A stretch of 11,557 nucleotides of DNA, taken from positions 1 to 11,557 of the forward strand of contig DMBA01000296.1 in assembly GCA_003446315.1 (NCBI GenBank), given 5' to 3'. The DNA is from Ruminococcus sp. (GTDB taxonomy: Bacteria > Bacillota > Clostridia > Oscillospirales > Ruminococcaceae). The position numbers and the translations under genes were made by a program. The notes beneath the pieces were generated by a model. It worked only from the letters and a program-made list of their open reading frames with translations, ran no database searches and was not told where the DNA came from. This document shows, in pieces, positions 1 to 11,473 of this stretch (its first letter is position 1; the number at the start of each line of letters is the position of its first letter).

Positions 1-449
1 GCAAATGCACCCAGAAATGTTCCCGTTACCCATCCGGTTGCAGCGATCAGCGTCATGCCGTACATATATACCGGCACAAGCGGTTCTTCCTGCGCCGCGC
101 ATACGCCGAATATTTCATCCGTAATGCCGTATGCAGCAAGCATCCGGTGCGGCAATGTGAACCGTTTGTCCAGTTTTTGCGACAATGACAGCGCCATCAA
201 TGCATATCGGATATTGATTGTAAGCTGCACCAGCGCCATTTCTGCAAGGGAACCGCCATGCGCCATCACACCAACGCCCGCTGCCTGTCCTGCGGATGTC
301 AGATTCAGCAGAGAGATCATTGACGCTTCCGTGACGCTCAATCCGCTTTTGACTGCCAGTATTCCAAAGCCAAATGATACCGACAAATAACCCAGTGCGA
401 TCGGGATGCCATGCATCAGACCGCGCCGGAATGATGCGCCGTTTCTCAT
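1..449 (-). CDS. azlC: AzlC family branched-chain amino acid exporter subunit, 3'-truncated by window edge
   Basis: This is the N-terminal part (about 149 residues) of a membrane protein read from ATG at 447-449 to the left edge. AzlC is the large subunit of the AzlCD pair, which exports branched-chain amino acids or analogues; full-length members are usually about 230-240 residues, so roughly the last third is missing. Direct translation gives a typical AzlC start: RGLMHGIPIALGYLSVSFGF, then a serine-rich stretch with a conserved NLTSAGQAAG segment, then INIRYALMALSLSQ, which corresponds to the family's N-[IL]-R-[HY]-x-L-M signature. Hydrophobic segments fit transmembrane helices. The gene follows the second ligase gene by 54 nt on the same strand and probably shares its transcript. 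The start is chosen because an in-frame TAA lies just upstream; a GTG two codons earlier is the only alternative. Its substrate here may be an amino-acid-like product of the operon, but that is inference. Confidence 0.86.
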   Translation of the reverse strand, partial: MRNGASFRRGLMHGIPIALGYLSVSFGFGILAVKSGLSVTEASMISLLNLTSAGQAAGVGVMAHGGSLAEMALVQLTINIRYALMALSLSQKLDKRFTLPHRMLAAYGITDEIFGVCAAQEEPLVPVYMYGMTLIAATGWVTGTFLGAF

Positions 450-481
450 GCACACCCCTGCCCGTTCTTCTTACCAATCAT
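446..481 (-). other. Possible 11-codon minicistron leading into azlC
   Basis: The best SD in this gap (AGGAGG, minus strand, 491-496) sits 9 nt before an ATG at 479-481 that is not in the azlC frame. That ATG opens an 11-codon frame reading MIGKKNGQGCA, whose TGA overlaps the azlC ATG as ATGA. It could be a coupling leader, or a remnant of the azlC N-terminus shifted out of frame by a change in the following G-rich run. A second tiny frame (478-507, nine codons) also starts as ATGA on the ligase stop. These may be coincidence; no function is claimed. Confidence 0.3.
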
Positions 482-503: not shown

Positions 504-1934
504 TCATTTTAATCTTGTTTCTATGCTGTCTTGTATGGTATCCGTGTGCCGTATTTTGGCATAATGCGGCAGCAGTTCATTCACCTCTGCTGTGATCTGT
601 TCCCCGTCACACGGCGCAGATACATAAATTGCTGCATGGATCTCGCCGCCCTGCGCATATACCTTTGCCTTTGTAATCATCGGATATGCGGCATACTTCG
701 CTTCCAGTTCTTCCGGAAAGACATTTTCGCCGTTCGAAAGCAGGATCATCCGGCGCTTTCTGCCCTGTAACCAGAGTTTTCTGCCGTCACATTTGCCCAG
801 ATCACCTGTCCGGAAATAGCCTTCTTCATCAAATGCGGCTGCCGTTGCTTCCGGATTGCCGTAATACCCTTCAAACAGATTCTCTCCGCGCACCATGATC
901 TCGCCGATGCCGTTTTCATCCGGATCCGCAATCTTGATCTCCTGCGATTCCATGACCGTTCCGACCGATTCAAAATCATCCGAATTGCTGTATTCCACAC
1001 TGATGATCGAAGATGTTTCCGTCAAACCATAGGCTTCCAGCAGATTTAAGCCCGCGCCTTTGAAATATGCACGCAGCTCCGGTTTGAAATATGCGCCGCC
1101 GCAAAACAGATATTTGATCTTTCCGCCCAGTGCAAGTGCCGGCGGGATCCCGTTTGCCTGACACGCCGCATATATGCGCTCGTATATCAGCGGAACTGCA
1201 CAGAATACGGTCGGTTTGACCATCTGCAATTCCTCAGTGATCTTTTTCGTATCGCTGCAAAGATAAACCTGCATGCCGGTGCAGAGCGAATACATGAAAT
1301 TGCAGATGCCGCTGTATGTGTGGCTCAGCGGCAGGAACAAATAATCTTTGTCATCCTTCGTGAACGGTGTGCGCAAATACAGACTCTCCCAGTTTGCATA
1401 CATCCGATGCTGCGAAAGCATGACCGCTTTCGGCATGCCCGTTGTGCCGGATGAAAAGATGATCTTGCAGCATGTTTCTGCACCGCGCGGTATGATCTGC
1501 TCGGACGGTTCTGCCGGCAGCGCCAATATTGTCTCAATCCGCACAAATAGCATCTCCGGATACTGCTGTTTCAGCGTTTCTGCAATTGCCGCACGCTCTG
1601 CATCGTATAGGATCGCCGCTGCATGCAGGATCTCCGCGGAACGGATCACATCTGCGGATTTCCATTCCTTCGAAAGGGTACAGCTCACACCGACATATCC
1701 CATAATCGCAGTATCTGCGATCATATACTGATAGGAATTTGCTGCAAGCATGATGATATTTTTCCCCGCAAGCCCCATTTTCAGCAGCCCCGCCGCCGTA
1801 TGCCGCACATCTTCTGCAAATGTCCGGAAGGTTCTGCCTGTAAATGCTGCTCCATCCCGTTCAAAAATATACGGATGTTCCGGGAAATGCTGCAATCCGT
1901 TTTCCAAAAGCGCGTCGATCTCGTAAGTCTTCAT
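504..1934 (-). CDS. ANL-superfamily adenylate-forming ligase (acyl-CoA synthetase-like)
   Basis: A 476-aa cytosolic enzyme expected to activate a carboxylic acid with ATP as an acyl-adenylate and pass it to CoA, a carrier or an amine. The core motifs are visible in order: A3 P-loop FSSGTTGMPK at 160-169, the A4-type LPLSH at 201-205, A5 YGLTE at 302-306, A7 YFRTGD at 373-378 and the A8 hinge GRKRRM at 391-396. These resemble fatty-acyl-CoA synthetases more than NRPS domains. The C-terminal subdomain is short: the usual A10 motif (P-x-T-x-x-G-K) is not evident, and the only lysine near that point is the last residue, K476. The start is fixed by AAAGGAG 8 nt upstream and by ATGA overlap with the preceding ligase stop. 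The acid substrate cannot be read from sequence. Last gene before azlC in the coupled run. Confidence 0.9.
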   Translation of the reverse strand: MKTYEIDALLENGLQHFPEHPYIFERDGAAFTGRTFRTFAEDVRHTAAGLLKMGLAGKNIIMLAANSYQYMIADTAIMGYVGVSCTLSKEWKSADVIRSAEILHAAAILYDAERAAIAETLKQQYPEMLFVRIETILALPAEPSEQIIPRGAETCCKIIFSSGTTGMPKAVMLSQHRMYANWESLYLRTPFTKDDKDYLFLPLSHTYSGICNFMYSLCTGMQVYLCSDTKKITEELQMVKPTVFCAVPLIYERIYAACQANGIPPALALGGKIKYLFCGGAYFKPELRAYFKGAGLNLLEAYGLTETSSIISVEYSNSDDFESVGTVMESQEIKIADPDENGIGEIMVRGENLFEGYYGNPEATAAAFDEEGYFRTGDLGKCDGRKLWLQGRKRRMILLSNGENVFPEELEAKYAAYPMITKAKVYAQGGEIHAAIYVSAPCDGEQITAEVNELLPHYAKIRHTDTIQDSIETRLK

Positions 1935-3361
1935 TCCAAATACTCCTTTAATCTGTCATAATTGATCTTGGTATGATGCTTGACATCGCAGGGGATCCTG
2001 TCAATGCACCGCAATACCGGCGCATTGATGCCAAAGGAGCGCAATGTCTTCCTGACCGTTTCTTCATGCGGCTGCGGATGCTGTAAAAAGACGTTGATGC
2101 GTCCTTTATGCTGTATTACCGCACATTTCGGGATCGTTGGATCCGCCGCTGTGATCGCCTGCTCAATCACATTACTGTAAAGATGTCTGCCGCATACCGT
2201 CACATATCTGCCCGTTTTGCCCAGATAATACAAGACACCGTCTGTTTCTTCCGCGATGTCGCCGGTGTGATGCCAGACAACGCCGCTGCTGTCGGTTTCC
2301 TTGCCGGAATCCTGCACCAGATAATGCTCCAGCAGCGCCGCACTCGATACCAGAATTTCACCGGTATCTGTCAGACGAACCTGCACCCCTTTCACCGGTA
2401 TGCCGAGCATTGCCCTGCCCTGCTGCTCCAGCGCCTGTATATATGCATCCAGATCCGCTGATGCAATGATGCTGCATTCTGTTGCGCCATAGATCAATGT
2501 GCATGCGCATTTTCGATATTTCTGCTTTATGATCCGCGCTTCATGCAGATTCAGGATCGCACCGCCGCAATAGACTCTGCGAAGATGCGGAAATACCGGC
2601 TCTGTCCGCAGACAGAAATCCGGTGATGTCAGCAGCATTGTGACCGGTTCATTCCGGAACAACCGCAGCACACGATTGCACTTTCCGGTGCTGCTCCTGC
2701 CAAGATTCAGCTTCGGCATGACTGTCGTGAAGCCATATAAAATATTCGCAAATACATATATATACGAAGTCGTCAGAACCGTTTCTTTGCCGTCATGTTC
2801 CAGATTATCGTGGATCAGTGTCAACTGATGCAGCAGATCCCGGTGACTGCGCACTGCAATCTTCGGCGTGCCGGTCGAGCCTGTTGTCATCGTCAGAAGC
2901 GCTGTGGTATCTTCCGGCAGCGGACGATGCGGCTGCATATCCGGTTTCTGCCCGTGATAACGGTCTGTGCGGACGATCCTGCGGATTTTGCCGATCTCCC
3001 GGAAAAACGGCCGCAGATACTTCGTTCTGCCGGATACCAGCACGGCATCCGGCGCATAATCTGCAAATACCCGCCGCAGTTTCTCCTGCTTTGCCCAGAT
3101 GTCTACATACATGATCGGGGCACCGATTTGCAGCGCGGCGATCATGCATACACATAAATCATATGACGGCGCTGCGAATGCCAGCAGCCGTTTGCCGCGC
3201 CGGATGCCGTGTGCCAGATAATATGCCTGCATCTGCTGCACATCCTGCTGCAATTCCGCGAAGCTGCGTCGTTTTACGCGATTCCCTCTTCGATAGATCA
3301 CCGCCGTTTCGCTTCCGCCTGCTGCAAATGCCTGTAAAAATGCATCAGCGATCCTGCTCAT
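1931..3361 (-). CDS. ANL-superfamily AMP-dependent ligase, OleC-like
   Basis: A 476-aa adenylate-forming enzyme, the same length as its downstream neighbour but clearly divergent from it. Visible motifs: A3 TMTTGSTGTPK at 157-167, A5 YGATE at 291-295, A7 HHTGD at 364-368, A8-like region near 381-400, and a good A10 ending IPCDVKHHTKINYDRL with the expected catalytic lysine at K465. The FTTGSTG-type loop, the YGATE and the D-x-K/R-H-x-x-K-I ending resemble OleC-type enzymes (beta-lactone synthetases of olefin and beta-lactone pathways) and related acyl ligases. This is pattern recognition from memory, so beta-lactone formation is not claimed. The ATG at 3359-3361 lies inside the end of the DUF3419 gene (17-nt overlap), and the stop overlaps the next ligase start as ATGA. 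It probably activates a carboxylate or a hydroxy acid made by the operon. Confidence 0.88.
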   Translation of the reverse strand: MSRIADAFLQAFAAGGSETAVIYRRGNRVKRRSFAELQQDVQQMQAYYLAHGIRRGKRLLAFAAPSYDLCVCMIAALQIGAPIMYVDIWAKQEKLRRVFADYAPDAVLVSGRTKYLRPFFREIGKIRRIVRTDRYHGQKPDMQPHRPLPEDTTALLTMTTGSTGTPKIAVRSHRDLLHQLTLIHDNLEHDGKETVLTTSYIYVFANILYGFTTVMPKLNLGRSSTGKCNRVLRLFRNEPVTMLLTSPDFCLRTEPVFPHLRRVYCGGAILNLHEARIIKQKYRKCACTLIYGATECSIIASADLDAYIQALEQQGRAMLGIPVKGVQVRLTDTGEILVSSAALLEHYLVQDSGKETDSSGVVWHHTGDIAEETDGVLYYLGKTGRYVTVCGRHLYSNVIEQAITAADPTIPKCAVIQHKGRINVFLQHPQPHEETVRKTLRSFGINAPVLRCIDRIPCDVKHHTKINYDRLKEYLE

Positions 3362-4430
3362 GCCGCTGCCCCCGATAGATCAGAAAATCACGATAAAACC
3401 ATGCCTGATTCTGCGGGAACAATTCTGCTGCTGCCGCACTGTCCCGCAGAAAGCCTGCGTCATCCAGATAACGCCGGTTCTGCATATTCCAATAAGCTGC
3501 TCTGCCGTCCGCTTTCAGCATTTTGGAAAGTGCCGCCGCATTATCTGCAAATGCTTCCTCGCTCATATATTCAAAAATATCCGAAAGATTCGCAAAATCA
3601 ATCTCCTTCACATCCAGAGAAAGCAGATCATCCCGCACCAGCCGGATGCGGTCAAGGCGATAACGGATAATCTCAAAACAATTCCGGTGCAGATACAGCG
3701 GCAGTGCACGCGGCGTAAAATTACCCGTCACGATATATTGCATATACGGATTTCTTGCATTTGCCGTTTGCGCGATCCCGGCTGCAAATCGCTCCCGGAT
3801 ATCATCCCCGCTTTCCGCTTTTTCATCGACATATGCATAACAGCTTTGATCTCTCCCAAGCCTGCCCATCACACGATATCCGAAATAGATCCGGAACATC
3901 ATCCGCAAGCCTGCATGATTGATCCTGCGATTGAAAAACCGAAGCTGTTCTTCCGGATGATCCATCGCTGCAAACTCCTCAAAAATCTCCCGCGTGGAAA
4001 ACAGCGGAATCACCTGCCGCCGGAATATCCCGAAAAAGCGCTCAAACTTTCCGGCATCGATCAGTCCGTTTGTGATAAGCTCTGTATGCGCATCAAAATA
4101 TTTGCGTGCCGCATCTGAGATCAGCAGACGCACGCGCCGGTACAGCGCAAGCCGGTCACCGTCACATACGCCAAACAGCCGCAGCACATCTTCATAATCC
4201 AGCAGACGCATGGCTGCCATTTTCAGCTCACATGTCCAAAGCTGCGCCGGATTCCGGTCAAATGCATAGATTTTCTTCGGATCTCCCAGCAGCAGCGCAA
4301 AGGTATTATCTCCGCCGGATGCCACGGAAATCCCCGTTTCACCCTTCTGCACCTGCAGCGCTTTTAACAGGATTTTTGTATCTTCCCAGCAATTCGAATA
4401 CCGGATCTCCGGTTGGATTTTATGTTGCAT
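3345..4430 (-). CDS. DUF3419/BtaA-like SAM-dependent 3-amino-3-carboxypropyl transferase
   Basis: A 361-aa protein of the DUF3419 family, whose characterised member BtaA moves the 3-amino-3-carboxypropyl group of S-adenosylmethionine onto diacylglycerol, giving a homoserine ether lipid. Family marks are plain: YSNCWED at 11-17, the SAM-binding glycine motif VASGGDN at 36-42, the acidic residue of FDRNPAQL at D58, CELKMAAMR at 67-75 with LRLFG soon after, and the C-terminal FANLSDIFEYM followed by YWNM. The length fits a stand-alone BtaA domain. There is no adjacent BtaB N-methyltransferase, so betaine lipid as end product is not indicated; the acceptor could be a lipid or a soluble intermediate. 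Start: GGAG 6 nt before ATG, with an 11-nt overlap with the upstream gene's end. Probably central to the pathway because it supplies a C4 amino acid unit. Confidence 0.88.
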   Translation of the reverse strand: MQHKIQPEIRYSNCWEDTKILLKALQVQKGETGISVASGGDNTFALLLGDPKKIYAFDRNPAQLWTCELKMAAMRLLDYEDVLRLFGVCDGDRLALYRRVRLLISDAARKYFDAHTELITNGLIDAGKFERFFGIFRRQVIPLFSTREIFEEFAAMDHPEEQLRFFNRRINHAGLRMMFRIYFGYRVMGRLGRDQSCYAYVDEKAESGDDIRERFAAGIAQTANARNPYMQYIVTGNFTPRALPLYLHRNCFEIIRYRLDRIRLVRDDLLSLDVKEIDFANLSDIFEYMSEEAFADNAAALSKMLKADGRAAYWNMQNRRYLDDAGFLRDSAAAAELFPQNQAWFYRDFLIYRGQRHEQDR

Positions 4431-6957
4431 CAGACTCTCCTATGATCTCAACTGTTCCTTGTATGCCGTCCACCCGAACCGTCATACCGTCCTGCACCGC
4501 ATCCGTCAGTCCGCGGATGCCTGCGACCAGTGTGATGCCCATTTCCCGCGCTACGACCGCCGAATGAGACAATACACTGCCGCGCTCTATGATAACTGCT
4601 TTTGCCATCGGAAACAATACAGTCCAGCCCGGATCTGTACGCTTTGCCATCAGAATATAGCCCTCAACATCCGCATGTGCCGGATCTTCCACGAGCTTTA
4701 CGATCCCTGTGACCGGTTTTCCGCCCCCTGCCGCACCGTGCAGGACTGCGCCGCCTTCTGTCTCCTGCCGCGTATAGACAGGAAGCATATGCGCAGGCGT
4801 AACAGAACCGTAAAAATACATGCGATCGTAGATCGGACGCGATTTGTTTGCCGCATATTCCGCTTTGCGCTGTTCTGCTTTTTGGCGGATCTCTGCCGGA
4901 TCCGTCCATCTGCCTGCCGCGATTTCGGATATTTCCGCTTTCTCCAGATAAAATACATCCCGGTAATGTGCCAGCATGCCCGCCTGCTCCAGATTCTTTC
5001 CGATGCGCAGATAAATATTCCGCACAACAGAATAAATATAAGTGCGGCGCAAACGCAATGACTCCCGATTACGGATAAAATATTTCGTCACACGCAGCAG
5101 CAGCCGGAGCCACGGACGCTTCCATGCACCGAAATGCGCAAGCAATGCCTGCTCTGCTCCGGCATCCTGCACGCCGCCCGATTCCGGCAGCGTTTCACAA
5201 TGCAGATAACCGCGGATCGTATCCAGCAGGAAGGACGGGTCTTCAAACAGCGTCACGGTTTCCAGTTTCAGCTCATCCATTGTCCGTGCGCCGAATCGCC
5301 GGATATATGCCGCGATCTTGCGGAACACCGGGTCATCATCCTGCATATGCTTCATGATGACGGCGTTCTCTGCTTCAAACAATGCCTTCAGCTCCGGCAT
5401 GTTCCGGATCTCTTTTACGATTTCCAGCACGGCTGCACTCTGCTCCGCGCTTTCGACATCGCCCTGCTTGCTGATAACTGCACTCAGCATGCCTTCATAT
5501 CCCGCGATCTGCTGCTTTTTGAGTTGATCGGTCAGCATCCCGTAAAAGACCATTGCGCCCATATCATTTGCGATCGGCGTGATGAAATCATCCAGAATCT
5601 CCCGTTCCAGTGTATCATATACCGCCAGTGCTTCGGCATTGTTCATGCCCTCGAACGAATTGGCATAATATGGTTTTGTCACCTGTGCAAACCGTTCCAG
5701 AAAATGTGCACTGTCCTTTTTCATCCGCAGCATGCGCCGGATAAAACTCAGATAGATCCGGACAAGCCGCGTTTTTGCGCCCATCTCCGATTCCTGCACG
5801 GTCATCTTAACGCCCATCATATTTTCCATATACTGCTTGTTTTTCTGATAGCCCGGATATAACGCCGTCATCCGATACCAACTGTTCAGGCGGTAATAGA
5901 TCTTGTTCTCATAAAAACAAAGCATATTGTCCAGATCATCCGAAATGGATGCGATGGCTTCCGGACTGACATAAAATGTACGCAGCGTCTGCCGGTATAT
6001 CTTGGCATAGACTTCCCGCGCAAAGGTAAAGGTCAGCGGGGTCGTCACGCCGGAATAGCTCTCAATGATATTGGAATTGTCCAGCACTGTCCGGAATGCG
6101 CTTTTATCTATGCCGCTGTAATTGGCAATGGCGCGGCTTTGCAGAATGTATATCGTTTCACCCTGTATGCAGAATTCAATATCCTGCCCGATGCGCGGCG
6201 TATTCCCTTTTTCGATCTGCTGTGCATAATCATACAGCCGCAGCAGCATTTCATCCGATACATGCGCATCTGCTTCTTTTCTGTATACGATTTCTCTTGC
6301 GGCACTGATCCCGTAGTCGCTGCTGTCGCTCTCACCCGAAACAAGCTGCTCCCCGATCCCTTTGACCACGCTGATATGCGTTTCATCCGGATCATTTGTG
6401 GTCGGGTCGATCGTAAACATCACGCCGGCATAATCTGCCGGGATCATGCGCTGAATGATGACGGCTGCACGGATCTCCGGCGAAAGCAAGCCGTTCCTTG
6501 CACGATACTGCATCGCACGATCCGAAAAACAGGAACGGTAACACTTGCGCACGGCATCCAGTACCGCTTCCGTTCCGCTGACATCCAGCCAGCTCTCCAG
6601 CATCCCGGCAAACGAATGTGCATCACTGTCTTCATCGGCTGCACTGGATCGAACTGCAAGCAGTGTCTGTTCCCCGAACAGCTCCTGCAAATGCACGGTG
6701 ATCCGATCTTTCCATTCCGGCGAAAAATCACAATGATCCAGCAGATCAAGAATCTTCTGCCGGTTTTCCGGCTGATAATCCCGCAGCAGCGCCTGATATG
6801 CCGAAAGCTGCTCCCCCAGATATGCTGTAAACAGCGCGGTCGGCAAAACCGTCCATTCCGGCACCGGCATCCCCATGCGGTCAAGCTGCTCCAGATGATA
6901 TGCCTTTCCGCCGATCGTCTGCACTTCCGGCACGGTGTTTTCCAGTATACAATTCAT
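4420..6957 (-). CDS. PEP-synthase/rifampicin-phosphotransferase-type dikinase (PEP-utilizing enzyme family)
   Basis: An 845-aa cytosolic phosphotransferase. The N-terminal ATP-binding (PPDK_N) domain covers about 1-280: GGK at 16-18, AVRSSAADED at 101-110, SFAGMLES at 115-122, AGVMFTIDP at 177-185 and QDIEFCIQG at 258-266, closing with ILQSRAI. The C-terminal swinging PEP-utilizers domain holds the phospho-acceptor histidine in LSHSAVVARE (His about 798). Between them lies a roughly 480-residue helical domain instead of the PEP/pyruvate barrel. Size and order match rifampicin phosphotransferases (about 865 aa), which move the beta-phosphate of ATP via the His to a hydroxyl. The middle domain starts VLDNSNIIESYSGVTTPLTF, a pattern of uncharacterised PEP-synthase-like proteins, so the acceptor is unknown and antibiotic resistance is not implied. 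Start at 6957: GAGG 8 nt upstream and ATGA overlap with the UbiA-like gene. Confidence 0.87.
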   Translation of the reverse strand: MNCILENTVPEVQTIGGKAYHLEQLDRMGMPVPEWTVLPTALFTAYLGEQLSAYQALLRDYQPENRQKILDLLDHCDFSPEWKDRITVHLQELFGEQTLLAVRSSAADEDSDAHSFAGMLESWLDVSGTEAVLDAVRKCYRSCFSDRAMQYRARNGLLSPEIRAAVIIQRMIPADYAGVMFTIDPTTNDPDETHISVVKGIGEQLVSGESDSSDYGISAAREIVYRKEADAHVSDEMLLRLYDYAQQIEKGNTPRIGQDIEFCIQGETIYILQSRAIANYSGIDKSAFRTVLDNSNIIESYSGVTTPLTFTFAREVYAKIYRQTLRTFYVSPEAIASISDDLDNMLCFYENKIYYRLNSWYRMTALYPGYQKNKQYMENMMGVKMTVQESEMGAKTRLVRIYLSFIRRMLRMKKDSAHFLERFAQVTKPYYANSFEGMNNAEALAVYDTLEREILDDFITPIANDMGAMVFYGMLTDQLKKQQIAGYEGMLSAVISKQGDVESAEQSAAVLEIVKEIRNMPELKALFEAENAVIMKHMQDDDPVFRKIAAYIRRFGARTMDELKLETVTLFEDPSFLLDTIRGYLHCETLPESGGVQDAGAEQALLAHFGAWKRPWLRLLLRVTKYFIRNRESLRLRRTYIYSVVRNIYLRIGKNLEQAGMLAHYRDVFYLEKAEISEIAAGRWTDPAEIRQKAEQRKAEYAANKSRPIYDRMYFYGSVTPAHMLPVYTRQETEGGAVLHGAAGGGKPVTGIVKLVEDPAHADVEGYILMAKRTDPGWTVLFPMAKAVIIERGSVLSHSAVVAREMGITLVAGIRGLTDAVQDGMTVRVDGIQGTVEIIGESDAT

Positions 6958-7460
6958 TTTGATTTCCTCTTGATTACGGCATAAACCGCTGAAATAAACA
7001 GGCAGCTCAGACAAATCACCGCTTGTTTTCCGCCGTATGCCGTCCCGTTCAGCAGATCATATAGTGCAAATAACAATGCCATATACGGACATTTCAGCAC
7101 CGCTGCCCGATTCATCAGCAGCAAATAAGCGATCGCCGCAAGACAGCAGATCCCCGATAACCCAAACAAATACAGATGCAGCAGCAACATCATGAGGCTG
7201 ATGCATCCAAACATCACAAGCAGTTCCTGCCGCCGCAGATGCTGCGTCTTTTTGCCGCTGTCTTTTTCGTAATCAAACCAGTCATCCGCTGTCCGCAGCA
7301 GCAGCAGATAACCGAAAATGACCGGCAGCATCCGCAATGCATCTGCAAAACGGAGATCTGCCTGCCATGTGTAAAGCATCGTCAGAAGCAAAGCCGCCGC
7401 AAGATAAACTGCTGCCAATCCTTTTCTGCTCCAATACCGCACAATCCGCATCGCACTCAT
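6954..7460 (-). CDS. UbiA-like integral membrane protein, half-size
   Basis: A 168-aa hydrophobic protein with probable membrane helices at about 14-31, 41-57, 80-100, 102-117, 126-140 and 147-163. Between the second and third is an aspartate-rich cytosolic loop, RTADDWFDYEKD (56-67), resembling the first Asp motif (N/R-x-x-D-D-x-x-D) with which UbiA prenyltransferases bind Mg-diphosphate. True UbiA enzymes are about 280-300 aa and carry a second Asp motif; here neither the length nor a second motif is present, so it may be a reduced enzyme, half of a dimer, or a membrane anchor for the operon's lipid substrate. The ATG at 7458-7460 overlaps the stop of the PP-loop gene as ATGA, and no good SD precedes it, so translation probably depends on coupling. 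The gene downstream starts as ATGA on its stop. Confidence 0.7.
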   Translation of the reverse strand: MSAMRIVRYWSRKGLAAVYLAAALLLTMLYTWQADLRFADALRMLPVIFGYLLLLRTADDWFDYEKDSGKKTQHLRRQELLVMFGCISLMMLLLHLYLFGLSGICCLAAIAYLLLMNRAAVLKCPYMALLFALYDLLNGTAYGGKQAVICLSCLFISAVYAVIKRKSK

Positions 7461-8518
7461 TTTTTGACAAAATTCCGATAGATCCACGCTTTCAGCCGGA
7501 TCGGTTCTTCCCTGACACCCAACGTTTCACACAGCAGCTTCATATCTGCACGCGGTTTCTCTGCATATTTTGCCTGCTCCACAAGCGCTATGCCCTGTTC
7601 CCGCGTCAGTTTCCCGCTGCGCACCAGAACACTGATCTCCGGCAGGCAATGCGGTCTGCCCTCTGCGCACTGGTAAATATAATGTGCCGCATGATGCACC
7701 TTGCAGTCATAATGGTCATAATCCTGATCCGGTGTCCATGACGTTTTTTCCCGCAGGAACTGTACGATCTCCTGCTCATCATAGGGGTGATATAAGAAAA
7801 ATGCCGTAAATTCACGGAAATCGTTTTCCCGCACGCCGTCATACAGCATTTGTCTGACATCCGCAGCAAGACCGGCATCCAGCTTGCTTTCGGTCAGATC
7901 CAGCAGCTTCCGGTAAAGCGCATTGACATCTGTTTCCGCTGCCGGACGAAGCCCCGCATCCACAAATCCGGTGAACACATCATCTCCGTAATACCGAAGC
8001 ATCTGCTGCGGACTTCTGCCGTGAATACACATGCCGGCATTGATCTTCGCAGTATAGTTAATCATCGCCGCATAGCCAAGATAGGAACAGGCAATGCAAG
8101 GGGTCAGGAAATGCTGCACCGAATACCGGAAAAACCGGTTCAGCAGATCCGGATCAAAGGAAATATATTCATGCTCCACGCCGAATTCCTGCACCATTGC
8201 ATCTACATTTTTGCGTGCACTGTCACTGAAAAAACCATTGAGCATCGTGAATGTCTTCACATGCAGCCCGTATTCCTTCACCAGCTTATACAGCACATAC
8301 ATGCTGTCCTTTCCGCCGGAGATCCCGACGGCTGCATCATAATCATACTTTCCGCGCACCGCTTCCAGCCGTTCCGCAAACAATTCCGTCAGATGGGCAC
8401 GATCCCCGAGCTGCGGCGCGATTTTATCGTATCTGCTGCAATAACAGCATTCACCGTTTGGCAGAATCTCCATTCTGCGCACGGTTTCGTCATTCAGACA
8501 GCGCACACACCGTTTCAT
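7457..8518 (-). CDS. PP-loop ATPase, N-acetyl-sugar amidotransferase-like, with cysteine pairs
   Basis: A 353-aa adenine nucleotide alpha-hydrolase-fold enzyme. The N-terminus has a four-cysteine knuckle (C4-x-x-C7 and C24/C25-x-C27), as in N-acetyl-sugar amidotransferases of the WbpG/PseA/LegX type, followed by the pyrophosphate loop GISGGKDS ending near residue 72. A further pair, C141-x-x-C144 in TPCIACSY, lies where tRNA thiolases such as TtcA carry catalytic or Fe-S cysteines. The family adenylates a carbonyl oxygen and replaces it with nitrogen or sulfur. No sugar-pathway genes surround it, and cysK is in the same operon, so a thioamide, amidine or amide step on the pathway intermediate is plausible; the actual reaction is unknown. 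The start is directly adjacent to the GNAT stop with AAAGGAG about 7 nt upstream; the stop overlaps the UbiA-like gene as ATGA. Confidence 0.85.
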   Translation of the reverse strand: MKRCVRCLNDETVRRMEILPNGECCYCSRYDKIAPQLGDRAHLTELFAERLEAVRGKYDYDAAVGISGGKDSMYVLYKLVKEYGLHVKTFTMLNGFFSDSARKNVDAMVQEFGVEHEYISFDPDLLNRFFRYSVQHFLTPCIACSYLGYAAMINYTAKINAGMCIHGRSPQQMLRYYGDDVFTGFVDAGLRPAAETDVNALYRKLLDLTESKLDAGLAADVRQMLYDGVRENDFREFTAFFLYHPYDEQEIVQFLREKTSWTPDQDYDHYDCKVHHAAHYIYQCAEGRPHCLPEISVLVRSGKLTREQGIALVEQAKYAEKPRADMKLLCETLGVREEPIRLKAWIYRNFVKK

Positions 8519-9397
8519 TCAGAACTCCTTTATAAACACCGCATACCGCTTCTCATCCGATTCCACTTCACTGTCAAAGCGCCGGAATGTCTCCTTCTGC
8601 TCGCACTGAAAATGATACATCATTTTATCATATCCGTGCTCTGTCACATACTTCCATCCAAGATACATCAAAGCGGTATAGATCTTATGCTTCCGGTATT
8701 CCGGCAGCACCGCGCTCGTTTTGGAGATGAAGCAGGTGCCGTCCGGACTGTCATAGCCCATCACAAAACCGACCGTTTTCCCCTGATATTCCGCTGTGCA
8801 GAGCGCGATCTTCAAGCCCTTTGTCCATTGCAGATAAAGCGCACGAAAATAAGAAAGCGGGATATCGCAATACAAATGACTCCCGCGAAATGCTGCGCTT
8901 GAAATCGCAAACACGGTATCCGCCTGCGAATAAACCGCATCCCCTTCATACAGCGAGAACGTGAAGCCTTCCCGCAGCTTTTGCTGATAAAGCACTTCAC
9001 CCATCTGATACTGCGGATTGTGCATATCAATATTCGCACTCCGGTAAGTATAAAGCGGCTCATAGCCTGCCGCCCGGATCAGTTCCGGATAATACGGCGG
9101 ATTCGTACAATCCGGAAACAAATGCAGATCAAACCGGCTGATCGCCCAGCGGTATTGCATCCATGAACAATAATTCACAGGCCCCACAAGCGCATGAAAG
9201 CCCAGTTCCCGCGCACGCTGTTCCATCGCTGCAAACAACGCTTTTACGTCCTCTGCCTGCTCTGTCAGCGTGACAAACCCAAACAAACACGGATGATCTT
9301 CCATCTTCCGGTTGATAATCAACTCCGCTTCACACCCGTTGACCCGAAATGTTTCATGATAATCCGCAAGTGCCAGTATTTCTCGTTCGTCCTTCAT
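8519..9397 (-). CDS. GNAT-fold N-acyltransferase, YghO-like
   Basis: A 292-aa protein. A first half containing GPVNYCSWMQY (about 72-82) and TNPPYYPELIRAAGYEPL (about 98-115) resembles the YghO-type GNAT proteins, which share a GP-x-N-x-S/C-x-x-x-x-x-G/R stretch and a N-x-P-Y-Y segment. The C-terminal half carries the acetyl-CoA-binding region KTSAVLPEYRKHKIYTAL (226-243) and a terminal strand. The usual Q/R-x-x-G-x-G/A loop is degenerate here (RKHKIY, no glycine), so cofactor binding may be altered. Expected role: moving an acyl group to an amine of the operon's product, but the substrate is unknown. The chosen ATG (9395-9397) has AAGGA 7 nt upstream; a longer frame starting inside the kinase gene would overlap it and lacks such support. 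Nineteen nt separate it from the kinase stop, and it abuts the PP-loop start. Confidence 0.78.
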   Translation of the reverse strand: MKDEREILALADYHETFRVNGCEAELIINRKMEDHPCLFGFVTLTEQAEDVKALFAAMEQRARELGFHALVGPVNYCSWMQYRWAISRFDLHLFPDCTNPPYYPELIRAAGYEPLYTYRSANIDMHNPQYQMGEVLYQQKLREGFTFSLYEGDAVYSQADTVFAISSAAFRGSHLYCDIPLSYFRALYLQWTKGLKIALCTAEYQGKTVGFVMGYDSPDGTCFISKTSAVLPEYRKHKIYTALMYLGWKYVTEHGYDKMMYHFQCEQKETFRRFDSEVESDEKRYAVFIKEF

Positions 9398-9416
9398 ATT
9401 TCCATCCTTCTCCCGG

Positions 9417-10472
9417 TCAGATTCCAAGCAGCCGCAGCATCCGTGCCGTATTCTTTGCTGTCTGCTGCGGTGTATCGACATGCAGCGTTTTCCCCGCAAG
9501 CCGCAGCAGCATCAGCTTATTCACACAAAATTCCAGCGTATTGAACCGCAGCAGCGCATGATATTCCGCATCGGTCAATGTGATGCCCGTCAGTGCGGTC
9601 ATCCTGTCCCTGTAATGCCGCAGCATGGCTTTTGCTTCGTCATCCGTCAGCGCATCCAGCACGGAGATCACCAGCTCTACTGCATCATGCTCCGGATTCT
9701 GATAACACGCAAGCTCCCAGTCATAAAGATAAATGCGCTCCGCCGTCACACAAAGATTGCGGTCACAGCAATCGTTATGCGTCAGCGTCCGCCGACCGGA
9801 AACCGCTTTGTATTCGGTGTCGATCTGCGCAAGAAACCGTTCGATCTCTGCAAGCTGCTGCGCCGAAAAGATCCGTCGGTTTTCTCCCGCCAGACTCTGA
9901 AACATCCGCCGCAAAACACCTTTTGTACGGCGATAATCTGCCGCAGAATAACAATTGATCCGCAATTGCGGAACGATCGCCCGATCACCCAGATATTTTG
10001 CATGCACGGCTGCAATTTCATCCAGCACCCGATCCAGTGCCGGTTCGATCGCATCACTTTCCGGCAGTTCTTCCATTGCCAGCATGCAAAAGCCGTTTCC
10101 CTTGCTGCATACAGAACCGTAAACTGTCGGAATAAGCGTCTGCGGCAATACATCCGGTTTGCTGTATAAAACAGCTTCCCGCACTGCACTGCCGCTGTAA
10201 CCGAATATTTTATGATGAAAAATCAGCAAAAGCATCAGCAGAGGATTCCCGCCGCTGACCATCAGAATCCCATTGGAGATAATACGGACAGATTTGCATT
10301 TTCCGACAAAAGAAACCGTTTTTCCGCTGCGGAATGCCGCTTCATATCGCATGACACCCGCACTTCCGGATGCCACACGATTGCTCATTCCGCTTTCATC
10401 TGCAACCGGTTCCGCTTGTACCCGAACCGGTTTTTGCCCGAAGATCCGGCAAATTGCCTTTCTGATCTGCAT
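9417..10472 (-). CDS. Aminoglycoside-phosphotransferase-fold small-molecule kinase
   Basis: A 351-aa kinase of the APH/choline-kinase superfamily. The nucleotide-binding N-lobe includes a probable ATP lysine in SFVGKCKSV (K58 or K60) and a helix-C glutamate in REAVLY (E99). The catalytic loop is LTHNDCCDRN (230-239), with D234 and N239 in the expected H-N-D-x-x-x-x-N pattern, and the Mg-binding aspartate is D251 in YLYDWELA. Such kinases phosphorylate hydroxyls of small amino or sugar compounds; the acceptor here is not evident, and a resistance role is not suggested by the context. The ATG at 10470-10472 lies 8 nt after the cysK stop; the SD is weak (ACCGGAT), so an internal ATG (for example M29, GMSNRV) cannot be excluded. 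A longer frame overlapping cysK is rejected. Confidence 0.82.
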   Translation of the reverse strand: MQIRKAICRIFGQKPVRVQAEPVADESGMSNRVASGSAGVMRYEAAFRSGKTVSFVGKCKSVRIISNGILMVSGGNPLLMLLLIFHHKIFGYSGSAVREAVLYSKPDVLPQTLIPTVYGSVCSKGNGFCMLAMEELPESDAIEPALDRVLDEIAAVHAKYLGDRAIVPQLRINCYSAADYRRTKGVLRRMFQSLAGENRRIFSAQQLAEIERFLAQIDTEYKAVSGRRTLTHNDCCDRNLCVTAERIYLYDWELACYQNPEHDAVELVISVLDALTDDEAKAMLRHYRDRMTALTGITLTDAEYHALLRFNTLEFCVNKLMLLRLAGKTLHVDTPQQTAKNTARMLRLLGI

Positions 10473-10480
10473 GATCCGGT

Positions 10481-11407
10481 TCAGTCGAAAAGCGGTGTGG
10501 AGAAATACCGTTCCGCCGTATCCGGCAAAATGGTCACGACTCGTTTGCCTGCGCCCAGTTTCTTCGCCATTGCGAGCGCTGCCGCGACATTCGTGCCGCT
10601 GGAAATGCCGCACATGATGCCTTCCATCGCTGCAAGTTTCTTAGCGGTCGAAATGGCTTCCTCATCGCTTACGATATGGATGTGATTGTAAATATTCCGG
10701 TTCAGAATGCCCGGAATAATGCCGTCACCGATGCCCATTTGCAGGTGCGTTCCGACGGTTCCGCCTGCAAGAATCGCTGCGTGCTCCGGCTCGACTGCCC
10801 AGATCTCCATATCCGGATTCTGTGATTTCAGTGTCTCGCCGATGCCGGTGATCGTGCCGCCTGTACCGATACCGGAACAAAAACCGTCGATCTTGCCGGC
10901 TGTCTGCTCCAGGATCTCCAGTGCGGTATAATACTTCTGCGCCTCGGTATTGTGCACATTATCAAACTGCTGCGGCACAAATACCCGCGGATCATTTGCC
11001 TGCATCTCCAAAGCCGTATCCAGACATTTCTGGATGCATTTGCCGATATCGCCGTCATCGTGAATCAGCACGACTTTTGCACCGTAATGCTCCACCAGCT
11101 TGCGGCGTTCTTCGCTGACCGAATCCGGCATGATGATGACCACCTGATATCCTCTGACTGCGCCGACCAGTGCAAGACCAATGCCCTGATTGCCGCTTGT
11201 CGGCTCGACAATTATCGTGTCATCCTTGATCCTGCCTTCTTTTTCCGCATTCAGGATCATATTATATGCAGTGCGGGTCTTGATCGAGCCGCCCACATTC
11301 AAGCCTTCAAACTTCACCAGAATCTCGGCATTTTCCGGTGCATTCATGCGATTCAGCCGAATCATCGGGGTATGTCCGACTGCATCCAAAATTGTTTGGT
11401 AAACCAT
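10481..11407 (-). CDS. cysK: Cysteine synthase (O-acetylserine sulfhydrylase)
   Basis: A 308-aa pyridoxal-phosphate enzyme that makes cysteine from O-acetylserine and sulfide, first gene of the operon. Recognised by the PLP lysine K43 in GGSIKTRTA, the substrate loop PTSGNQGIG (69-77), the phosphate-binding GTGGT at 181-185, SSGTN at 269-273 contacting the pyridine nitrogen, and the typical end DTAERYFSTPLFD. Length is normal. One oddity is Q74 in the loop, where enterobacterial CysK has threonine (TSGNT); I recall this glutamine in many clostridial homologues, so it may be a clade trait. Start: GGAG 10 nt before the ATG, downstream of the operon promoter. It may serve ordinary sulfur assimilation, or supply cysteine or a related beta-substituted alanine to the downstream pathway; the tight linkage favours the latter without proving it. 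Confidence 0.93.
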   Translation of the reverse strand: MVYQTILDAVGHTPMIRLNRMNAPENAEILVKFEGLNVGGSIKTRTAYNMILNAEKEGRIKDDTIIVEPTSGNQGIGLALVGAVRGYQVVIIMPDSVSEERRKLVEHYGAKVVLIHDDGDIGKCIQKCLDTALEMQANDPRVFVPQQFDNVHNTEAQKYYTALEILEQTAGKIDGFCSGIGTGGTITGIGETLKSQNPDMEIWAVEPEHAAILAGGTVGTHLQMGIGDGIIPGILNRNIYNHIHIVSDEEAISTAKKLAAMEGIMCGISSGTNVAAALAMAKKLGAGKRVVTILPDTAERYFSTPLFD

Positions 11408-11444: not shown

Positions 11445-11473
11445 ATTATATCACATTAACCGTGAAATTTCAA
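11445..11473 (-). promoter_or_regulatory. Sigma-A type promoter of the operon
   Basis: On the minus strand, -35 TTGAAA (11468-11473), a 17-nt spacer and a perfect -10 TATAAT (11445-11450), preceded by the extended-10 TGA. Transcription should start near 11438, leaving about a 30-nt leader before cysK. No other comparably good promoter was seen inside the operon. Confidence 0.85.

Follow-up and report, generated by a model that had tools for sequence, protein, structure and literature searches.

Several described systems resemble single genes of the operon analysed here, a run of nine open reading frames (ORFs) on the minus strand of an 11,557-nt stretch of Ruminococcus sp. DNA (contig DMBA01000296.1), which in its whole length we call the window. 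Its DUF3419 protein recalls the synthesis of diacylglyceryl-trimethylhomoserine (DGTS) by BtaA and BtaB: the protein matches PF11899, which we take to be the family holding BtaA, JGI names some DUF3419 relatives S-adenosylmethionine-diacylglycerol 3-amino-3-carboxypropyl transferase, and one NCBI name is BtaA family protein. However, DGTS synthesis makes no use of the seven other conserved genes of the window's cluster, and the Pfam hits of the window's nine proteins include no methyltransferase family, hence no N-methyltransferase (BtaB). Rifampicin phosphotransferase (Rph) and the prodigiosin ligases PigC/RedH have an N-terminal ATP-grasp and a C-terminal swivel His in common with the window's dikinase, which differs from them in that dikinases of its type adjoin, or are fused to, half of a UbiA protein. 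UbiA prenyltransferases such as digeranylgeranylglyceryl phosphate synthase share with this half-size protein the N-terminal half of the fold and the first Asp-rich motif, whereas it lacks the second half and has neither the full-length fold nor the second Asp-rich motif. Finally, the PP-loop protein is similar to N-acetyl sugar amidotransferases (NASAT, WbuX, WbpG) but, unlike that family, it sits with DUF3419. The original prediction, made from the sequence alone, did not recognise the combination as a known pathway, and we likewise found no description of this cluster in the open-licence literature.

Eight of the nine genes are the anaerobe version, mostly of Clostridia, of a cross-phylum biosynthetic gene cluster. 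As far as that literature goes the cluster is new; it is assembled from known enzyme families, and its product class may be new as well. Within it, the block may well make a membrane-associated conjugate built around an aminocarboxypropyl (homoserine-type) unit, which is our preferred but still tentative reading. The features, with ORF starts set by comparison with relatives, are the following:

9417..10472, minus strand: APH-fold small-molecule kinase (family match; HND...RN and D.E motifs)
8519..9397, minus strand: GNAT N-acyltransferase-like protein (conserved GPxNY..W..YRW motif)
7457..8518, minus strand: PP-loop ATP pyrophosphatase, NASAT/WbuX-like (C4xxC7...C24xxC27 of Zn type, SGGKDS at 67-72, extra C141xxC144 and C272)
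6954..7460 (start 7460 or 7451), minus strand: half-size UbiA-fold membrane protein (RxxDDxxD[YF]xxD motif and fold)
4420..6957, minus strand: rifampicin-phosphotransferase-type dikinase (ATP-grasp and C-terminal swivel domain, catalytic His retained)
3345..4430, minus strand: DUF3419 (BtaA-like) protein, presumed S-adenosylmethionine (SAM) 3-amino-3-carboxypropyl transferase (PF11899)
1931..3361, minus strand: ANL2 adenylating ligase, nearest NCBIfam model PRK09274 (C-terminal DVKHHTKI motif)
504..1934, minus strand: ANL1 adenylating ligase, nearest PRK06187, MenE and malonyl-CoA synthetase (conserved C-terminal Lys)
10481..11407, minus strand: cysK-like cysteine synthase, outside the conserved block (TIGR01139, 358.5 bits, cut-off 350.95)
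11445..11473, minus strand: promoter-like site TTGAAA-17-TATAAT with TG before the -10, ahead of cysK (consensus match, 11/12)

Order and borders of the block

Loci were collected with a DUF3419 profile built from 30 proteins, and the best 80 of at least 495 relatives, ranked by DUF3419 similarity, were retained; neighbouring genes played no part in the choice, and this sample is not a census. We divided it into 23 close loci, 5 loci of a fusion group (L063 and L073-L076) and 52 distant loci, and determined gene content by profile searches across all six frames. The order APH-GNAT-PP-loop-half-UbiA-dikinase-DUF3419-ANL2-ANL1 is complete in 15 of the 23 close loci (ANL1 is cut by the contig end in L019). 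As for the others, L008, L010 and L017 start inside the dikinase gene, L017 also being without an ANL gene downstream; APH is missing in L007 and L013 and the PP-loop gene in L015, L009 retains only APH, GNAT, dikinase and DUF3419, and L020 is rearranged, without APH and with ANL1 relocated to the front. Among the close loci, dikinase and DUF3419 are adjacent in all 23, DUF3419 and ANL2 in 21, ANL2 and ANL1 in 20, half-UbiA and dikinase in 19, GNAT and PP-loop as well as PP-loop and half-UbiA in 18, and APH and GNAT in 17. Two doubts that the original prediction had raised about itself are mostly allayed: more than one genome has the order, and for the most part its genes keep their neighbours instead of shuffling independently. 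In L010 the match to ANL2 (1930-3636) falls into two parts, perhaps through a break in the gene or a misassembly.

On the other hand, the flanks of the close loci share little. Among flank families present in at least 3 loci overall (flanking ORFs are only partly annotated), F11 (ABC-ATPase) occurs in 6 of the 23, in varying positions and strands, F25 in 3, and F24 and F22 (GH43) in 2 each. Family 43 glycoside hydrolases lie downstream of the cluster at L001:14691-16325 and L063:3974-5392 and are probably unrelated to it. Both DUF3419 and the PP-loop gene are rare: in 295 genomes from the order of L001's genome (E <= 1e-20), a match to either protein of the window occurs in L001's genome alone. 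Of 299 genomes from the family to which L011's genome belongs, 1 has DUF3419, the centre itself. Conserved order, few shared flanks and this rarity together make the block a rare unit with sharp borders. The closest relatives of the window among the matches listed are Oscillospiraceae metagenome-assembled genomes (MAGs).

A nine-gene coupled operon had been predicted, and nine coupled minus-strand ORFs are indeed present; cysK, however, recurs in L001 alone among the 80 loci (tblastn, E <= 1e-5), so that the conserved operon comprises eight genes and cysK is ruled out as a conserved member of the pathway. The predicted junction range, with a 17-nt overlap at one extreme and a 19-nt gap at the other, is borne out with the starts set by comparison with relatives, which shifted four of them inward (APH 10472, GNAT 9397, half-UbiA 7460 or 7451, dikinase 6957). 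There are gaps of 8 nt between cysK and APH and of 19 nt between APH and GNAT; GNAT and PP-loop abut (0 nt), and overlaps measure 4 nt (PP-loop-UbiA, UbiA-dikinase and ANL2-ANL1), 11 nt (dikinase-DUF3419) and 17 nt (DUF3419-ANL2).

Could these be unrelated housekeeping or accessory genes, neighbours by chance? The common housekeeping gene cysK, whose place is shared with L001 only, and the rearranged L020 would fit such an explanation. It is contradicted by the same order between differing flanks in the 15 complete loci, by gene fusions and by the co-occurrence of rare genes; the conserved order already refutes it, and we give it practically no weight. A functional link between the genes of the block is supported by order, fusions and co-occurrence.

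As to the remainder of the window, the single promoter proposed originally agrees with the 11/12 site ahead of cysK. Promoter-like sites overall are not enriched relative to shuffles (15 vs a shuffle mean of 12.7, sd 3.7), so that this site rests on its score and place; terminator-like counts were not clearly above shuffles. An AzlC gene (window 3-455) lies just downstream of ANL1 and runs off the window; it had no match in the 80 loci. At 1e-5, PADLOC-DB models gave 0 families for the 9 proteins, and the idea of an anti-phage defence system was set aside; so was that of a structured RNA, there being no Rfam match at gathering scores. In line with the prediction, no polyketide synthase, nonribosomal peptide synthetase or carrier protein scored over its cut-off among the nine proteins.

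Motifs and predicted folds of the encoded proteins

The families are those originally named (PALP/cysK, APH, GNAT, PP-loop, UbiA-like, PPDK_N with PEP-utilizers, DUF3419 and two AMP-binding), by Pfam or NCBIfam matches and, for the UbiA-like protein, by predicted fold. The predicted fold of the PP-loop protein matches NASAT over its whole length, and NASAT comes first by a wide margin, ahead of the thiolases. Residues C4, C7, G22, C24 and C27 and the SGGKDS motif are invariant in 19/19 sequences and fit the NASAT pattern SGGXDS plus CXXCXn[GN]XCXXC; passages of PMC10607449 are among the basis for this NASAT/WbuX-like assignment. The protein also has a Cys triad, C141, C144 and C272, invariant in the same 19/19 and complete in 119 of the 120 homologues listed, a set that includes the protein of the window, whereas the solved structure 8wex lacks it at the aligned places. 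As a mark separating the family from WbuX, the triad was dropped: of four WbuX-family proteins over the cut-off, L087 and L088 have the CxxC and the distal Cys and L086 and L089 have none of them.

The kinship with NASAT bears on one alternative, namely the decoration of a surface glycan or teichoic-acid-like polymer, in which the GNAT would make an N-acetyl sugar as substrate for a NASAT-type amidotransferase, and the choline-kinase-like APH would add a phospho-substituent. The PP-loop protein is indeed nearest to N-acetyl sugar amidotransferases, and among the names shown for its relatives, which at NCBI are hypothetical protein, one UniRef name (P0222) is N-acetyl sugar amidotransferase; the APH kinase has weak similarity to choline kinases, an epimerase gene precedes the L074 cluster, and an ORF inside the L020 cluster resembles a glycosyltransferase by eye. 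However, the PP-loop protein scores 128.3 bits with TIGR03573 (WbuX), below the curated cut-off of 203.2, no other sugar-gene family occurs in at least 3 close loci as far as the flanking ORFs are annotated, and DUF3419 and the two ANL ligases are left unexplained. We consider glycan decoration improbable.

A combination of PP-loop, CxxC and distal Cys, known here from sequence, is also that of the [4Fe-4S] thiolases NcsA, TtuA and Ncs6; passages of PMC10067955 give C142, C145 and C233 as the ligand Cys of NcsA. The triad keeps sulfur chemistry possible and is no proof of it. Together with the fold similarity to tRNA thiolases such as NcsA and TtuA, it could point to RNA modification, with aminocarboxypropyl transfer by DUF3419 and thiolation of nucleosides by the PP-loop protein, and 3-(3-amino-3-carboxypropyl)uridine (acp3U) is a known tRNA modification (PMC6895100). 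In such a process UbiA, the dikinase, the ANL ligases and the GNAT would have no evident role, and the far better structural match is NASAT; we regard RNA modification as very improbable.

For the half-UbiA protein neither Pfam nor NCBIfam gave a hit. Its predicted fold matches the N-terminal half of UbiA, in keeping with the half-UbiA originally named, its 168 aa aligning to residues 5-183 of the 279-residue 7bpu. The residues of the first Asp-rich motif (R56, D59, D60, D63 and D67) are invariant in 18/18 aligned sequences, and the 18 listed relatives measure 157-206 aa. In the partner dikinase, VRSSA and LSHSAV are invariant in 16/16 rows and the swivel His aligns with Rph His825, the role of which is described in passages of PMC4844700; the enzyme is therefore probably active as an ATP-to-AMP phosphotransferase or ligase. 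Its NCBIfam matches to Rph, PigC and RedH are below the cut-offs, and its alignment with Rph leaves out residues about 219-504.

The DUF3419 protein (191.9 bits with PF11899) has the GDN and DxN residues of the presumed SAM-site motif, which are invariant in 24/24 rows. In ANL2 the second Lys of DVKHHTKI is retained in 22/22 rows; the last residue of ANL1 is Lys in the window and in 18 of 19 complete relatives, and we take it to be the A10 lysine by its distance to the hinge. The APH motifs are retained in 18/18 rows. A solved-structure search with the GNAT gave no match; GNAT ORFs with an additional N-terminal domain occur at L073:4514-6013 and L074:4643-6106, this domain being HAD-like (Pfam) in L074.

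The wider cluster and its distribution

The original prediction missed a wider cluster with a full-length UbiA, a lipid-kinase-like protein and often a 3-hydroxy-3-methylglutaryl-CoA (HMG-CoA) reductase. The counts among the 52 distant loci are 44 for the dikinase, 43 for the membrane protein F3, 42 for a full-length UbiA, 40 for the GNAT, 37 for ANL2, 23 for the HMG-CoA reductase and 4 for ANL1, while the PP-loop, APH and half-UbiA profiles are best matches in none (in L030 an APH domain is hidden in a fusion). F3 follows DUF3419 in 43 loci. Its first member is without a Pfam match, of 23 members 6 have a weak match to DUF92 and one to CTP_transf_1, and a solved-structure search with its profile gave no match; partly on its motifs, we take F3 to be phytol/dolichol-kinase-like. 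MMPL exporters adjoin the cluster in L030, L033, L059 and L078. The wide version is also borne by a Roseinatronobacter plasmid, on which F3 and the GNAT are annotated as hypothetical proteins and the remainder by domain; Natronospirillum operosum and Phormidium tenue are examples of culturable carriers of this version.

Natural fusions are of two types. One joins half-UbiA to the dikinase; the other joins HMG-CoA reductase to a kinase of APH type, from the family represented in the window, and stands beside DUF3419 at L095:6270-9026, L096:7970-10726 and L030:4612-7362. Among 398 genomes of the phylum, centred on L001's genome and not picked by similarity, three carry DUF3419 (E <= 1e-10): L001's, and two in which the latter fusion lies directly beside it.

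Loci with both DUF3419 and dikinase bear 20 phylum-level names by label (16 among the distant loci), with Melainabacteria counted separately; they are mostly MAGs, which may contain binning errors. The DUF3419 tree groups the 24 close rows in a single clade and the fusion group, L063 included, in a second, with the distant rows placed apart. DUF3419 was matched in 1 of 14 control genomes (Deinobacterium chartae), and the viral contigs scanned with the DUF3419 protein gave no match. L009, L013, L015 and L017, labelled Candidatus Saccharibacteria, nest within the otherwise Bacillota clade; L009 and L013 have two flanking families in common, L015 has one of these, and all three genomes are of about 0.9 Mb. 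A different context was seen on Rhizobium plasmid pMK-2 (L085:1808-7056), where DUF3419 adjoins a ketoacyl-ACP synthase III, an oxidoreductase, an MBL-fold protein and a CoF synthetase.

Such a patchy distribution, with DUF3419 in none of the order sample's other 294 genomes and in 3/398 of the phylum sample, would also suit a soluble secreted specialised metabolite that contains an aminocarboxypropyl unit and serves as metal chelator, antibiotic or signal, half-UbiA merely tethering the dikinase to the membrane. The single DUF3419 copy in each of the 18 carrier genomes searched agrees with this, and two ANL ligases plus a dikinase similar to Rph and PigC/RedH are typical of such pathways. Yet UbiA and the lipid-kinase-like protein are found in most distant loci (42/52 and 43/52), and the close loci are without an exporter at a constant place, the F11 ABC-ATPase of 6 flanks varying in place and strand. 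A secreted metabolite therefore appears to us somewhat unlikely.

A possible route to an aminocarboxypropyl conjugate

For a membrane-associated conjugate, the chemistry of the steps can be read from family knowledge. DUF3419 would transfer the 3-amino-3-carboxypropyl group of SAM to the hydroxyl, or another nucleophile, of an acceptor, in the way BtaA acts on diacylglycerol, and the GNAT would acylate the newly introduced amine. Using ATP, the PP-loop enzyme would activate either the amide formed in this way or a carboxyl, replacing O by N (giving an amidine or amide) or by S (a thioamide). The ANL ligases would convert carboxylates to adenylates and the APH kinase would phosphorylate an alcohol, while half-UbiA would hold, at or in the membrane, the substrate that its partner, the dikinase, would phosphorylate by way of the swivel His. 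Here we infer each substrate, the order of the steps, the choice between amidine and thioamide and the lipid acceptor; the presence of UbiA, F3 and the exporters, together with the relation to BtaA, speaks for the last. The aminocarboxypropyl transfer and amide/thioamide-type chemistry put forward originally thus appear to be the best family-based guess, and the homoserine-like conjugate or aminolipid keeps the standing of a proposal.

Several observations weigh against a membrane-associated conjugate. None of the 23 close loci has HMG-CoA reductase or F3, and 17 of 18 genomes carrying such loci lack HMG-CoA reductase, so that the two versions need not share a product; the lipid evidence comes mostly from the distant one. 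The dikinase is missing in 8 of the 52 distant loci, four of which end near DUF3419 or its neighbours while L025, L030, L037 and L072 do not. In the locus DNA examined, L031, L037 and L072 carry no cluster gene but DUF3419, so that this gene is also found by itself. When the eight proteins are compared by pairwise identity, the correlation is only moderate (Spearman 0.35-0.76). The BtaA kinship of DUF3419 is presumed from family membership and database names; the protein is without a solved relative, its structure search being weak (best E 0.029). NASAT enzymes are thought to require an ammonia-supplying partner, and none is present in the window.

It is conceivable, at a lower level of confidence than the conjugate itself, that the cluster defines a new bacterial class of membrane-linked homoserine ethers, with a pathway found in some 20 phylum-level groups; a UbiA-type protein would there present a lipid to an Rph-type dikinase. 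In anaerobes this would involve the N-terminal half of UbiA, sometimes fused to its partner, and an amidine or thioamide made by the Cys-triad PP-loop enzyme. If true, an unnamed biosynthetic route would operate in gut, oral and environmental bacteria across many phyla, and would extend as an accessory pathway to the very small genomes of Candidatus Saccharibacteria (about 0.9 Mb in the three searched). It would add a class of lipids or lipid-linked metabolites, reveal a UbiA half working with a dikinase, and provide a defined target for lipidomics.

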